Assembly: GCA_945788685.1 (NCBI GenBank)
Contig: CALZMZ010000008.1
Span: forward strand, 1-44,093
DNA: 44,093 nt
Reading direction: 5' to 3'
DNA from: Thermodesulfovibrionia bacterium
GTDB taxonomy: Bacteria; Nitrospirota; Thermodesulfovibrionia; UBA6902
The notes beneath the pieces are model-generated. The model saw nothing but the letters and a program-made list of their open reading frames with translations. It made no database searches and was not told the origin of the DNA. Shown piece by piece: positions 6,269-44,085 of this stretch (within the stretch, counting starts at the first letter, position 1; every line of letters starts with the position of its first letter). The position numbers and the translations under genes are program-made.

Positions 6269-6634
6269 TTATCCCTCCTTGTCTATTAGGAGACCTTTTA
6301 AATCTTTTGCATTCTTTGAAAGCTCTACCAGCTCTTTTGGTGGAACCTGCCTGATTACCTCTTCTGTTTCACTGTCAACAATCTTCACTATCACCATATT
6401 AATATCGTCTTCTACTTCAAGTTGAATTTTCCGGTTGAATAACCGGGCAGTTCCGGCTACTCGTTCCATAGCCTCACTGATATCAACACTATCCTGCTTT
6501 TTGAGGTCTTCATTATTAACTACCTTTTCTTCCTCCTTAACTGCTTTTTCAGCCCTAACTTTACTTCGATTATCAGTTTGGGTTGCTGGCATCATCTCTA
6601 ACCCTGCCTTTTTATCGAAAATACCGTTAATCAT
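6269..6634 (-). CDS. flaG: FlaG-family flagellar protein
   Basis: A 121-aa protein with a charged N-terminal half and a C-terminal FlaG domain: VEDDINMVIVKIVDSETEEVIRQVPPKELVEL. FlaG proteins are small filament-associated factors that influence filament length or stability; their biochemical role is poorly defined. The start at 6634 follows GGAGGGAG. The gene lies between flagellin and fliD, the conserved position. The frameshifted flagellin frame reads past a hairpin at 6665-6695 and slightly into the flaG start. Confidence 0.92.
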   Translation of the reverse strand: MINGIFDKKAGLEMMPATQTDNRSKVRAEKAVKEEEKVVNNEDLKKQDSVDISEAMERVAGTARLFNRKIQLEVEDDINMVIVKIVDSETEEVIRQVPPKELVELSKNAKDLKGLLIDKEG

Positions 6635-7571
6635 TTTGTCTCACTCCCTCCAGAAATTTTATTATCAGGGGCAGAGCGTAAAACTCTGCCCCTGAAGTAA
6701 GCGTCTTACTTGACTTTACGACAGCAGCTGGAGAGCATACTGCGGGATTGTGTTTGCCTGAGAAAGAACGGCAACTCCAGCCTGCAGAATGATCTGACTT
6801 CTTGTGAGTTGTGAGATTTGCTGTCTCAATTGCAAAGTCAGCATCTGCAATTCTTGAGTTAGCAGCTGAAAGGTTCTCAGATGCGATCTCAAGGTTAGCA
6901 ATTGTACTTCCGAGCCTGTTCTGAACAGCACCGAGATTACCTCGCCTGGTGGAAACAGTTGATATTGCACTATCCAGTACAGTCAGCATTGACTGGGCAG
7001 CACCAACTGAATCGATACTTGATAACGCGTCTGTTGTCAGATTAAGAGCTGATGCATCAATATTTCCAAATGTGGTTGCAGAGATTTTAATTCTGTCATT
7101 GGTAGTGTTATTGATACCAACCTGAAGTGATACACCAGTTGCGCTCAGACTTCCATCCATAAGCTTCAGACCGTTAAAATCTGTTGTATCTGAAATTCTG
7201 TCTATTTCAGACTTAAGATCAGCAAACTCTGTCTGCAGAGCAGTCCTGTCAGAAGTTGAGAGCGTGCCAGTCGCAGACTGCTGTGAGAGCTCTCTCATCC
7301 TGGTAAGGATGTTATGGATCTCGTTCATGCCGCCTTCTGCAGTCTGCACAACAGATATACCATCCTGTGCATTTCTGACTGCCTGGTTAAGACTCCTGAC
7401 ATGAGCGGTCAACTTCATGGAAATAGCCATTCCAGCTGCATCATCCTTTGCAGAGTTGATCCTGAGACCTGAAGACAGTCTCGCAACTGAAGTTCCCAGC
7501 TGATTCTGTGTGGTCTTAACGTTTCTCTGAGAATTCAGAGACAGTAGGTTAGTGTTAACTATTAAACTCAT
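6627..7571 (-). CDS. fliC: flagellin, C-terminus frameshifted by a 7-bp duplication
   Basis: The filament subunit. The N-terminus MSLIVNTNLLSLNSQRNV and the LSSGLRINSAKDDAAGMAIS block are classic D0/D1 flagellin. The start at 7571 is set by AAGGAGGAAT and by homology; an upstream in-frame start at 7595 would add 8 residues. The C-terminal domain runs normally through SRIADADFAIETANLT, about residue 252, and then leaves frame. CTCACAA occurs twice in tandem (6802-6815). With one copy removed the frame continues RSQIILQAGVAVLSQANTIP and ends at 6716, giving a normal 282-aa flagellin. As it stands, the C-terminal D0 helix is replaced by about 60 unrelated residues read through a hairpin to 6627. 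It is either a pseudogene, a phase-variable OFF state or a sequence error. Expression: sigma-28 promoter 7740-7766. Confidence 0.9.
   Translation of the reverse strand: MSLIVNTNLLSLNSQRNVKTTQNQLGTSVARLSSGLRINSAKDDAAGMAISMKLTAHVRSLNQAVRNAQDGISVVQTAEGGMNEIHNILTRMRELSQQSATGTLSTSDRTALQTEFADLKSEIDRISDTTDFNGLKLMDGSLSATGVSLQVGINNTTNDRIKISATTFGNIDASALNLTTDALSSIDSVGAAQSMLTVLDSAISTVSTRRGNLGAVQNRLGSTIANLEIASENLSAANSRIADADFAIETANLTTHKKSDHSAGWSCRSFSGKHNPAVCSPAAVVKSSKTLTSGAEFYALPLIIKFLEGVRQND
6665..6695 (-). terminator. hairpin after flagellin
   Basis: A perfect 12-bp stem (TCAGGGGCAGAG pairing with CTCTGCCCCTGA) with a 7-nt loop lies 21 bp downstream of the normal flagellin stop at 6716. The downstream tract in the minus direction is AT-rich but has no clean U run. 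It probably attenuates transcription into flaG-fliD-fliS or stabilises flagellin mRNA. Confidence 0.6.
6802..6815 (-). repeat. 7-bp tandem duplication inside flagellin
   Basis: TTGTGAG TTGTGAG on the plus strand (CTCACAA CTCACAA in the gene). Removing one unit restores a canonical flagellin C-terminus. Copy-number change at such a unit would switch the reading frame. Confidence 0.9.
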
Positions 7572-7739
7572 TTTATTCCTCCTTGATTTAGTCACCAGAC
7601 CTTTTTGTCAAGCGACTCTTTTGGCTTCCTTGCCAGTATTTACAGGCTCATGCCTGCATTAAAAAACTCAGGGTTAGGTCATGTTGTCGGTTTTTGTTCC
7701 CTCCTTTCCTGACCGTTACCTATTTGATCTTTAGCTTAC
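7572..7739 (-). promoter_or_regulatory. flagellin mRNA leader with probable CsrA sites
   Basis: The leader of about 160 nt contains a hairpin with stem TGGC/GCCA and loop AAGGAA (7622-7635). The Shine-Dalgarno AAGGAGG lies at 7578-7584, about 46 nt away. CsrA prefers GGA in hairpin loops, and a dimer can bridge two sites at this distance. A further GGA cluster, CAGGAAAGGAGGGAAC, lies at 7696-7711. csrA and fliW are the next genes upstream. The layout resembles the B. subtilis hag leader, where CsrA blocks the ribosome and FliW relieves it. Confidence 0.6.
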
Positions 7740-36518: not shown

Positions 36519-36647
36519 CAAATAACAAGTTCCACATTACAAATAACATACAATTGCCCTAGATCCAGACTCAAATGAAGTATGGTTTTTGTTGTTTGGA
36601 ATTTAATATTTGTGATTTGTTTGTAATTTGGAACTTGTTATCTGGTG
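36519..36647. repeat. imperfect inverted repeat made of 7-mers
   Basis: The left arm 36519-36553 reads CAAATAA CAAGTTC CACATTA CAAATAA CATACAA. The right arm 36592-36647 is largely its reverse complement in 7-mers, including TGATTTG, TTTGTAA, TTTGGAA and CTTGTTA. It lies between cheB and the two-CW gene and could fold into a long hairpin or act as a weak terminator for cheB. Confidence 0.65.
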
Positions 36648-37103: not shown

Positions 37104-37142
37104 AAAAAAGCAGGACAAGATAAACCCTTGCCCTGCTTTTTT
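37104..37142. terminator. bidirectional terminator
   Basis: AAAAAAGCAGGACAAG and CTTGCCCTGCTTTTTT form a 16-bp stem with one mismatch and a loop of about 7 nt. An A run precedes it and a T run follows, so it can work for the two-CW gene and for flgE from the other side. Confidence 0.85.
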
Positions 37143-37343
37143 AGCTTTCAGCTATCAGCCGTTAGCTGTAAGTCTTTTGTCTTATGTCTTTTGTCTTATG
37201 TCTTTTGTCTTATGTCTTTACTTTTTTCTCTTTTGCCGTCACTCGTTACCTCTTACCTCTTACCTCTTACCTCTTACCTCTTACCTCTTACCTCTTACCT
37301 CTTACCTCTTACCTCTTACCTCTTACCTCTTACCTCTTACCTC
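37143..37343. repeat. compound heptad repeat array ending inside flgE
   Basis: Continuous 7-bp periodicity. First AGCTTTC AGCTATC AGCCGTT AGCTGTA (37143-37170), then alternating GTCTTTT/GTCTTAT (37172-37213, three 14-bp units), then degenerate 7-mers, then TTACCTC x14, exact, at 37246-37343. The last array contains the flgE stop codon and replaces the expected 3' end of flgE. Confidence 0.92.
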
Positions 37344-38602
37344 TTTGAAATCATCCTTGAATTGGCCTGGAATCCTCTCTGGTGAAGAATCAGTTTAACA
37401 AACTCTTCTGCAAGGTCAACATTACTCTGCTCAAGTGTATTTGATAATACCGTACCTGTACCTGATGTTCCCGGTATACTGATAACAGGCTGCCCCGAGT
37501 TGGTTGATTCAGCAAACAGGTTTCTTCCCATCTTTGTAAGGGCATGCGGGGCCAGGAACTTGGCCAGCGCTACCTGTGCTACGCCCCTGGTCTGACCGTT
37601 TGTGAAGATACCGGTCATTGTACCGTCCTGCGATATGGTGATGCTTTTTAATGATCCTGAGGAATATCCGTCCTGGTTCTGGAACATGGTCGCTGACTGA
37701 CTTCCATACTGGACCGTACCGTCCTGTCCTGAACCGCCTTCAGTTATTGACGTACCAAAATCAAAACCAATCACCTGATTTGCTGCGGCACCGCCCGTGA
37801 AATTAAATCCACCTGGTCCCGGAGCTACAACTACCGGGTACGTCACAGCACTTTCATTATCCAGATATCCGTTATTATTAAAATCAATCGTACCCTGAGC
37901 CTGGACCTCGGTGCTTCCACTTGCGGTATCAGTGGCTCCGACTACCGCATACCACTGCCATGTGTTTCCTGTTGGTAACTCAACAGATTTTCTGAAATAT
38001 ACGTCCACAACATGACTGTTTCCCAGTGAGTCATAGACCGTAACTGAACTTGAGAAATTTGATGTATTATTTGGATTATTCACATCAAAGGCTCCAACAG
38101 GTATAGTTTCTCTTGAATCAAGGTTTGCAGCAATTGTCATAGCTGTGGTTTCTGTTGGTGAACTGTTTAATGAAGACAGGTTAATGTCGCCCAGACCGCT
38201 TGTTGCTGATCCGGACTGATTAAACAGATATCCCTGTAAACGCTGGTTGCTTGGATTTACAACAAACCCGTCTTTATTAATGCTAAACTGCCCTGCTCTT
38301 GAATAATAGGTGCCGGCGCTGTCTTCCATTATAAACATGCCGTCTCCATCAACCGCCAGGTCCAGTACGTTTGCCGTATTTTCAAATGTACCCTGGGTAA
38401 ATGACGGTGATACTGAGTTCATCCTGACACCACGTCCGATCTGGCCCTCTCCCACCTGCTGGGCAAGGATATCGGCAAAGGCGGCCCTGCTTGTTTTAAA
38501 TCCGGTCGTGTTCATGTTGGCAACATTGTCACCGATGACCGAAAGAGCAGTACCGCTTGCGTTCATTCCGCTGACTGCTGTAAATAATGATGTTAAAGCC
38601 AT
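37337..38602 (-). CDS. flgE: flagellar hook protein FlgE, C-terminus truncated
   Basis: A 421-aa hook subunit. The N-terminus is normal: MALTSLFTAVSGMNASGTALSVIGDNVANMNTTGFKTSRAAF. The C-terminus runs through QSNVDLAEEFVKLILHQRGFQANSRMI, then reads SKR and stops. Hook proteins usually continue about 12-16 residues with a TTDEMLQxLxNLKR-type helix; the FlgG here keeps the equivalent [17 protein letters not shown]. The stop codon lies in the first unit of a TTACCTC x14 array, and no remnant of the missing helix is visible beyond. The terminal D0 helices of hook subunits pack in the inner core, so the truncated protein may assemble poorly, unless another flgE exists. The start follows AAGGAGGAAT. 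Confidence 0.95.
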   Translation of the reverse strand: MALTSLFTAVSGMNASGTALSVIGDNVANMNTTGFKTSRAAFADILAQQVGEGQIGRGVRMNSVSPSFTQGTFENTANVLDLAVDGDGMFIMEDSAGTYYSRAGQFSINKDGFVVNPSNQRLQGYLFNQSGSATSGLGDINLSSLNSSPTETTAMTIAANLDSRETIPVGAFDVNNPNNTSNFSSSVTVYDSLGNSHVVDVYFRKSVELPTGNTWQWYAVVGATDTASGSTEVQAQGTIDFNNNGYLDNESAVTYPVVVAPGPGGFNFTGGAAANQVIGFDFGTSITEGGSGQDGTVQYGSQSATMFQNQDGYSSGSLKSITISQDGTMTGIFTNGQTRGVAQVALAKFLAPHALTKMGRNLFAESTNSGQPVISIPGTSGTGTVLSNTLEQSNVDLAEEFVKLILHQRGFQANSRMISKR

Positions 38603-41519: not shown

Positions 41520-41840
41520 ATGAATATAACAGAAAGACAGATTCTGGAATCATTCAAATTATCACTGCTTAAACGGCTGGCAGTGCACAAAGTAATTTTA
41601 TTTGGTTCGAGGGCTCGTGGAGATGCAGACGTATATTCCGATATGGATGTAGTGGTAGTTCTTGATCAATTATCAAGTGTTATAGATGTGGATTATGTTA
41701 GTGATTGTGCCTGGGAGGCTGGATTCGAACATGGCATTGTTGTGGTTCCTATTGTTTATTCAAGGGATGAATGGGAGAAAAGTCCTGAACGATATTCCCT
41801 GCTTGCAATGGCAGTTGAACAAGAAGGTGTCACAATTTGA
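41520..41840 (+). CDS. MNT-type nucleotidyltransferase, putative antitoxin
   Basis: A 106-aa minimal nucleotidyltransferase: FGSRARGDADVYSDMDVVVVLD holds GSxxxGxxxxxSDxDV with the metal-binding aspartates. Such proteins pair with HEPN proteins; in characterised MNT/HEPN modules the MNT partner adenylylates the HEPN toxin. The next gene is a HEPN protein overlapping by 4 bp, so this is a two-gene unit. It is unrelated to motility and marks the start of the accessory region. Confidence 0.9.
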   Translation: MNITERQILESFKLSLLKRLAVHKVILFGSRARGDADVYSDMDVVVVLDQLSSVIDVDYVSDCAWEAGFEHGIVVVPIVYSRDEWEKSPERYSLLAMAVEQEGVTI

Positions 41841-42247
41841 AAAGTGACGACATAAACACCCTTATAAAACATCGTCTTGATCAGGCGCAGACCGCACTTG
41901 ATGACGCAAAGTTTCTCTGTGAGGGTAAACGGAGTTCTCAGAGCATTGTCAACAGGGCATACTATGCAATGTTTTATGCAGCACTTGCACTATTACAGAA
42001 AATAGGAATGGTACCATCAAAACACACCGGTGTTATAAGCCTTTTTGATACGGAGTTTGTTATAAAAGGTATGTTCACAAAGGAACTTTCCAAAGATTTT
42101 CATAAATTGTTTGAAATGAGACAGGTCTCGGACTATAAATCCTCAGATGAAATTACAGAAAAACAGGCTGAAGATGCGATAAAGAGAGCAGTTTCATTTG
42201 TCGAGTCCATTATCAATTATATTGAGTCTGATAATTCATCGTCTTAA
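41837..42247 (+). CDS. HEPN-domain protein, putative toxin
   Basis: A 136-aa helical protein with AYYAMFYAALALLQKIGM, typical of HEPN. It starts at TTG (41837), overlapping the MNT stop as TTGA. HEPN RNases of the HepT type carry RX4-6H; here the equivalent place reads MRQVSDYKSS (R-X4-Y), so the canonical histidine is absent. It may be a non-nucleolytic HEPN of the MNT-associated class rather than an active RNase. A strong terminator follows. Confidence 0.85.
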   Translation: MKSDDINTLIKHRLDQAQTALDDAKFLCEGKRSSQSIVNRAYYAMFYAALALLQKIGMVPSKHTGVISLFDTEFVIKGMFTKELSKDFHKLFEMRQVSDYKSSDEITEKQAEDAIKRAVSFVESIINYIESDNSSS

Positions 42248-43294: not shown

Positions 43295-43669
43295 TTAAGA
43301 TTTCTCATCGTCTTTATCAGTGTCATTAAGCAGATCATCCAGCGGACTCTCAGGTGCCCCGTTTAATTCTCTTATGACGTGAAGGTAAATCATGGTTGTT
43401 TCTATGTTTTTATGTCCTAACAGTTCCTGTATTACCCGGATATTAACGCCTTTCATTAATAAGTGAGTAGCAAATGAATGCCGAAGCGTATGTACTGAAG
43501 CATGCTTGGGTATTTCCGACTTTTTCAGTGTCCGCGCCATGGCATCCTGTATGGCCTTTTCACTTTTATGATGTCTTCTAATCTTTCCGCTACGGGGGTC
43601 TACAGAGAGACGGGATGAAGGAAACACGTATTGCCAGTGCCATTTACATAAGCGTTTAGCTTTTAGCAA
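43295..43669 (-). pseudogene. intI: integron-type integrase, C-terminal remnant
   Basis: The frame encodes [25 protein letters not shown], a hallmark of integron integrases (usually WxWQYVFPAxxLSxDPRSGxxRRHH). The catalytic [12 protein letters not shown], the histidine in LLGHKN and tyrosine in TTMIYLHVI follow. The N-terminal half with the first catalytic arginine is missing. The visible frame starts at a TTG and its first residues (LKAKRL) come from a repeat array, right after the end of the four-helix-bundle gene. It is a broken integrase, not a functional recombinase. No attI or attC sites were seen. Confidence 0.85.
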
Positions 43670-43681
43670 TTAGCTTTAAGC
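43654..43681. repeat. heptad array at the integrase break
   Basis: GTTTAGC TTTTAGC AATTAGC TTTAAGC on the plus strand; in another phase AGCTTTT, AGCAATT, AGCTTTA. It encodes the last residues of the four-helix-bundle protein and the first residues of the integrase remnant. The unit family AGCTNNN also occurs at 37143 and 44051. Confidence 0.75.
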
Positions 43682-44022
43682 TTTTTAAAAAATGATATCA
43701 ACATGCGTTTTACCTCAATAACCTCGTCCATTAGTAATTTATGGTCTGAACTTTTTATCAGTTCAAGATCATGACTCAGTAAAAGCTGATACTCAAGTTC
43801 GCTCGATGAAGCTATTGCGAACTCCATGAACCGTGCAAGTTCTGTATCCCTGCTCCTTCCACATCCTTCTGCAATATTTGTTGGTATTGATGCGCATGAC
43901 CGGCGCATCTGACTTGTTAAACCGTACATTTCTTCCCGTGGAAAACCTGATGTGAGTTTGTATATTTTTAAAGTCAACTTATGGCCACGCTCCCATACTT
44001 TAAGCTCACGGAAATCTTTCAT
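43663..44022 (-). CDS. four-helix-bundle protein (S23/IVP family)
   Basis: A 119-aa protein: [38 protein letters not shown] and [15 protein letters not shown] are typical of the S23 / intervening-sequence protein family, structurally like the Avd accessory protein of diversity-generating retroelements. AAAGGAGG precedes the ATG. Members occur as inserts in 23S rRNA genes and scattered in genomes; their function is unknown. Here the gene lies at the break of an integrase and is bordered on both sides by AGCTTNN heptad arrays, which suggests it came in as a unit. No reverse transcriptase is nearby. Confidence 0.92.
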
Positions 44023-44050
44023 CGGGTGCCTCCTTTAATATTTTATTTGG

Positions 44051-44085
44051 CTTACAGCTTACAGCTAAAAGCTTATAGCTTATAA
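44051..44085. repeat. heptad array upstream of the four-helix-bundle gene
   Basis: CTTACAG CTTACAG CTAAAAG CTTATAG CTTATAA: five phased 7-mers (AGCTTAC, AGCTAAA, AGCTTAT in another phase). Same orientation and family as the array at 43654-43681. Confidence 0.8.

Follow-up and report, generated by a model that had tools for sequence, protein, structure and literature searches.

Tandem repeats with a seven-base unit are widespread in bacteria. As cited in later papers (PMC4679880, PMC4692102), Mrazek and colleagues (2007) reported that heptanucleotide simple sequence repeats are over-represented relative to other periods and lie mostly outside genes, and polymerase slippage was proposed. The excess has been known since then, and a firm cause is lacking. 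TAACTGA direct repeats occur in Beggiatoaceae, Cyanobacteria, and Bacteroidetes, mostly just before start codons, and their overlap with the ends of upstream genes has already been described (PMC4679880). Quadruplex heptads (GGGNATC and GGGGA(C/T)T) are known from Xanthomonas and Nostoc (PMC4692102). In the intervening sequences (IVS) of 23S rRNA that carry an S23p/IVP ORF, a PF05635 gene lies between stem-forming terminal inverted repeats (PMC4990558).

Here we describe an exact heptad array at the 3' end of flgE, the hook protein gene, within a window of 44,093 nucleotides that is the start of contig C8 of a draft metagenome bin (G000; 2.6 Mb, 192 contigs, 84% complete). It was compared with Thermodesulfovibrionia (Nitrospirota) metagenome bins, of which G001 is the closest and G002 is a sister bin. 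G001 is a one-contig assembly that matches CP070632.1 (isolate bin97) by position and identity. On the flgE strand the array unit reads GAGGTAA, and the array covers the last 9 bases of the gene, stop codon included. Its 98 exact bases are not a product of chance. The inverted repeat beyond the second, degenerate tract (Table 1) was missed by a terminator scan because its stem lacks a short loop of the scanned type.

Table 1. Positions of the features discussed, numbered from the first base of the window
Feature	Positions	Strand	Details
Exact heptad array, (TTACCTC)x14.3	37246..37345	none	TRF: period 7, 14.3 copies, 100% match
Second, degenerate heptad tract, GTCTTTT/GTCTTAT	37172..37235		Separates the array from the flgE terminator; 7-bp register shared with the array
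Inverted repeat AAAAAGCAGGGCAAGG...TTGTCCTGCTTTTT, probable flgE terminator	37108..37144	minus	Kept in G001 and G002
flgE, hook protein	37337..38602	minus	421 aa, C-terminal 12 codons missing; ORF, Pfam, alignment of relatives
fliC	6627..7595	minus	Frameshifted near the C-terminus
Exact 7-bp tandem duplication CTCACAA/CTCACAA in fliC	6802..6815	minus	Single copy in G001
23S rRNA-intervening-sequence protein gene (PF05635/TIGR02436)	43663..44022	minus
Heptad tract, one side of the PF05635 gene	43651..43685		Inverted relative to the tract on the other side
Heptad tract, other side of the PF05635 gene	44050..44084
Inverted heptad-like arms, no gene	36519..36644		35 nt, 83% complementary, 56 nt loop

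Far from being confined to flgE, the array is a member of a genome-wide family. Its unit recurs on four or more further contigs of G000, and at one of these sites (L148) it likewise covers a stop codon. More broadly, 733 kb of G000 contain 52 period-7 tracts versus 3 of period 6 and 13 of period 8, and 1.28 Mb of G001 contain 27 versus 2 and 3, respectively. The seven-base unit, its excess over other periods, and a mostly extragenic location are shared with the repeats of Mrazek and colleagues; relative to what the citing papers report of that work, the tracts here differ in having many units with a common core, a location at gene ends, and hairpin pairing. Units include GTAATTT, GTAAGAG, GTAAGAA, GTAATGG, GTGACGA, and GTTAGAA, among others, and 62 of 79 tracts contain a GTNA core (GT.A), versus 21% of background heptamers (P ~3e-27). 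The core was first spotted by eye on the G000 tracts and only afterwards ranked, when it came out on top of all cores tested. G001, a partly independent set, has it in 19 of 27 tracts.

Like the TAACTGA repeats, these units stop translation in all frames and overlap the ends of upstream genes, and TAACTGA itself fits GTNA when read on the other strand (GTTATCA). It is, however, one fixed unit, whereas here many units (TTACCTC at flgE) lie near stop codons, with an apparent loss of conserved sequence. Tracts are found at 3' ends rather than just upstream of starts, and are rare in divergent gaps (2 of 69 versus 190 of 980, P ~1e-4). The Xanthomonas and Nostoc heptads also form intergenic arrays whose length varies between relatives, but they are G-rich and quadruplex-forming and lack the GTNA core. 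The Helicobacter pylori heptad GTGATTA fits GTNA as well. GTNA orientation relative to the upstream gene is only weakly biased (26 versus 20), too weakly for selection for stop cassettes on the sense strand, and this candidate was rejected. Nor is there more than a slight general excess of 7-bp indels since the split from G001: 18 indels of 7 bp separate the two genomes, versus 15 of 6 bp and 10 of 8 bp.

In 17 of 1701 genes, versus 2.3 expected (P ~4e-10; genes were taken as long ORFs, with no trained gene finder), the stop is directly followed by a copy (at least 6 of 7 bases) of the final heptad of the coding sequence; a spacing of 6 gave no excess. Downstream of the flgE stop, the DNA of 25 family members has a lag-7 self-similarity of 0.344, compared with 0.263 +/- 0.009 after shuffling. 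This is the highest value of all lags, although the units differ between species. G001 likewise has heptads at gene ends. In several of the 17 genes the heptads form the last codons too. For example, a BatD-like protein ends in EVRGKR in G000, whereas its relatives stop after LERHK, and an outer-membrane efflux protein ends in ELRSKK in G000, GGRGKK in G001, and HKK in G002. Such spill into a gene end usually lengthens or changes a tail that is dispensable; at flgE, by contrast, conserved residues were lost.

The identity of FlgE is supported by Pfam matches to FlgE_D2, Flg_bb_rod, and LlgE_F_G_D1, and the rod/hook N- and C-terminal domains are both recognized. The complete C-terminal D0 helix is absent: Flg_bbr_C is matched over profile positions 2-34 of 46, compared with 2-46 in FlgG of the same window. 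The protein ends in ...GFQANSRMISKR (also ...LHQRGFQANSRMISKR), i.e., ...MISKR*, with the stop inside the array. Among 108 flgE loci from relatives (some genomes being counted twice), 101 extend beyond window residue 419 by exactly 14 residues, with an end of the TSDELMMELVNLKR type as in G001, and 6 extend by 12-17 residues or are truncated where their contig ends. The window's end, at +2 after residue 419, was found in none of the 108. Relative to its relatives, the gene has thus lost a net 12 codons (36 bp), in frame. At the DNA level, flgE of G001 has an intact end, no array at this site, the same terminator, and the same convergent neighbor gene.

The original observation, that FlgE runs into the array, stops there, and lacks a conserved C-terminal stretch that FlgG keeps, is therefore confirmed with corrections, and its interpretation is partly supported. 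The C-terminus is indeed missing, but through an in-frame loss of 12 codons and not a simple run into foreign DNA. A second, complete flgE, for which a genome search had been proposed, was not found in G000 (84% complete). Recent expansion of the array is supported by its exact repeats and by the array-free site in G001, although these give it no date. The final KR and TAA resemble a native end, AAG AGG TAA being that of G002. However, the array ends in KR* whichever frame it is entered in, so native remnant and array look alike, and the stop in the first repeat unit could well be native to flgE.

We consider it somewhat more probable than the alternatives combined that a heptad tract of the GTNA class expanded where flgE ends, and that the same or a linked slippage or deletion event removed the 36 bp encoding the final 12 residues of the helix of D0. 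The array may have originated from the gene's own stop-codon heptad (AAGAGGTAA) and grown by 7-bp slippage. As the unit carries TAA and seven is not a multiple of three, each copy would stop all frames, so growth downstream of the stop would be neutral. Such tracts could also eat into a gene end or extend it. This account accords with the array, the in-frame loss, the intact flgE of G001, and a genome-wide repeat family that favors gene ends. Weighing against it are the draft state of G000, with ~1.5% frameshifted orthologues, lesions in the same genes of G002, the low dN/dS of flgE, the slightness of the 7-bp indel excess, and the weak GTNA strand bias. If correct, the flgE case suggests that heptad repeats may do damage, at the cost of a conserved protein end, and that they offer genomes an easy route to changed C-termini.

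The main doubt is assembly error in a draft metagenome bin, which we regard as the less likely reading, though with appreciable weight. The true flgE would then be complete and followed by the array, and a short-read assembler would have dropped 36 bp at the repeat edge and created the fliC duplication. In its favor, identical 7-mers occur in several arrays of G000; an exact 22-bp tandem duplication (L213, near 10150) and a ~88-bp deletion (L210, near 500) each break another conserved gene of the bin, and G002 is damaged in the same two flagellar genes. However, the reading frame survives the deletion, and the codons that it brings together look native. Both flanks of the array are colinear with the one-contig G001, ruling out a wrong contig join; the join at the array is right because G001 has the intact end, the conserved terminator, and the same neighbor gene. 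G001 also shows heptads at gene ends and a similar rate of apparent frameshifts (2-3% of orthologues), so frameshift errors exist in both assemblies and G000 is not clearly worse.

What the loss means for the hook depends on the residues involved, which align to residues 391-402 of Salmonella FlgE. In the structure of the hook, the channel is lined by the C-terminal D0 helix, which spans residues 367-402 (PMC6769732), and the C-terminal export signal maps to residues 371-380 (PMC10936197). Because this signal is kept, the short FlgE is probably exported; it probably packs poorly in the hook tube, and flagellar function would be lost. Alternatively, the change is real but near-neutral and the short FlgE still builds a hook, which seems improbable. 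When export binding was tested by overexpression, Salmonella FlgE without residues 391-403 behaved like the wild type, but hook assembly was not measured there (PMC10936197). The remainder of flgE is under strong purifying selection relative to G001 (dN/dS 0.075), so function, if lost at all, was lost recently, and every other flagellar gene of the window has its full length. Against tolerance, the lost residues are present in all relatives examined, down to ~40% identity, and lie in the channel-lining helix.

That the flagellar locus as a whole is decaying in this lineage is, in our judgment, similarly improbable. It would account for lesions in both flgE and fliC, the only flagellin gene found in G000, whose 7-bp duplication shifts the frame ahead of the conserved C-terminus. 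Both genes are also hit in G002, where flgE has a frameshifting deletion of 86-bp scale close to the start and, toward the end, an exact duplication of 46 bp (L007/L198), and fliC has a C-terminal deletion with a frameshift (L299). Damage to two flagellar genes in two draft bins is either genuine decay or the result of faulty assembly of conserved DNA. However, ~40 other genes of the window, including all its other flagellar genes, are full length and colinear with G001; dN/dS is 0.04-0.14; and flgE and fliC are complete in both G001 and a further relative, G003.

Phase variation through changes in array length, which a long array of exact repeats at a gene for a surface structure and a 7-bp duplication in fliC might suggest, is very improbable and was rejected on frame logic: the stop falls in the first unit and TAA occurs in every frame, so unit gain or loss changes neither frame nor product and cannot switch FlgE on or off. 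Nor could the alternative array lengths for which the preliminary description proposed a test restore its C-terminus; this would take an allele with the missing 36 bp. The fliC unit has two copies only.

Heptad tracts elsewhere pair as hairpins. Among neighboring tracts within 1 kb, 19 pairs face inward, 7 face outward, and 3 point in the same direction (all minus, none plus-plus), and several pairs fold as strong stems. Four TIGR02436 genes were identified in G000 (PF05635 was matched in the three checked), and three of the four, that of the window included, sit between inverted heptad arms. In a sample of the phylum (window 43295-44084 and loci L308, L309, L310, L313, L315, and L322-L350), 18 of 23 testable PF05635 loci have inverted flanks, versus 3 of 296 small control genes, the criterion being a score above every one of 200 shuffles. 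Lag-7 self-similarity of the arms is 0.64, versus 0.21-0.31 at other lags; the arm sequences differ between lineages and the period of seven is constant.

A PF05635 gene between terminal inverted repeats is also the arrangement of the 23S rRNA IVS (PMC4990558), the nearest system found in a literature search, which returned no description of heptad-armed PF05635 genes. In contrast to the IVS, the copies here have arms of 7-bp units and lie between or inside protein genes: one between hisA and hisF, and that of the window in an integron integrase gene, which it seems to interrupt. The C-terminal half of the integrase gene (43295-43669) adjoins the PF05635 gene, and a putative N-terminal half lies beyond the window (L310), past the element and a run of N.

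The flgE tract has neither a PF05635 gene nor an inverted partner, and the locus folds weakly apart from the terminator, so a hairpin built from the tract was rejected there. For want of partner and gene, we assign the tract to the heptad family and not to a complete element.

More tentatively, and with rather less confidence than in the account of flgE itself, we suggest that heptad tracts may be the arms and remnants of small hairpin elements spreading in Nitrospirota, some of which enclose a PF05635 four-helix-bundle gene in their loop, whereas many lack one. Their units would spill into gene ends and rewrite or truncate C-termini, as in FlgE, and the protein would recognize the heptad stem. 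The 7-bp periodicity would then be a property of the element rather than the polymerase. The GTNA core, hairpin pairing, stop-codon location, and PF05635 link provide testable handles on the origin of heptads.

Other features were also noted. The gene-less arms in the window (ATTACAAATAAC / GTTTGTAATTTGG) lie between cheB and a two-CW-domain gene. At locus L145 (8340-8462), a 12-copy GAGGTAA array flanked by inverted heptads precedes a ribosome-binding site and start codon, and the predicted stem is strong (z -6.6). At 41520-42247, the window encodes a small nucleotidyltransferase with a weak MntA-like match below cut-off, followed by a possible HEPN-type partner ORF, absent from the searched stretch of G001.
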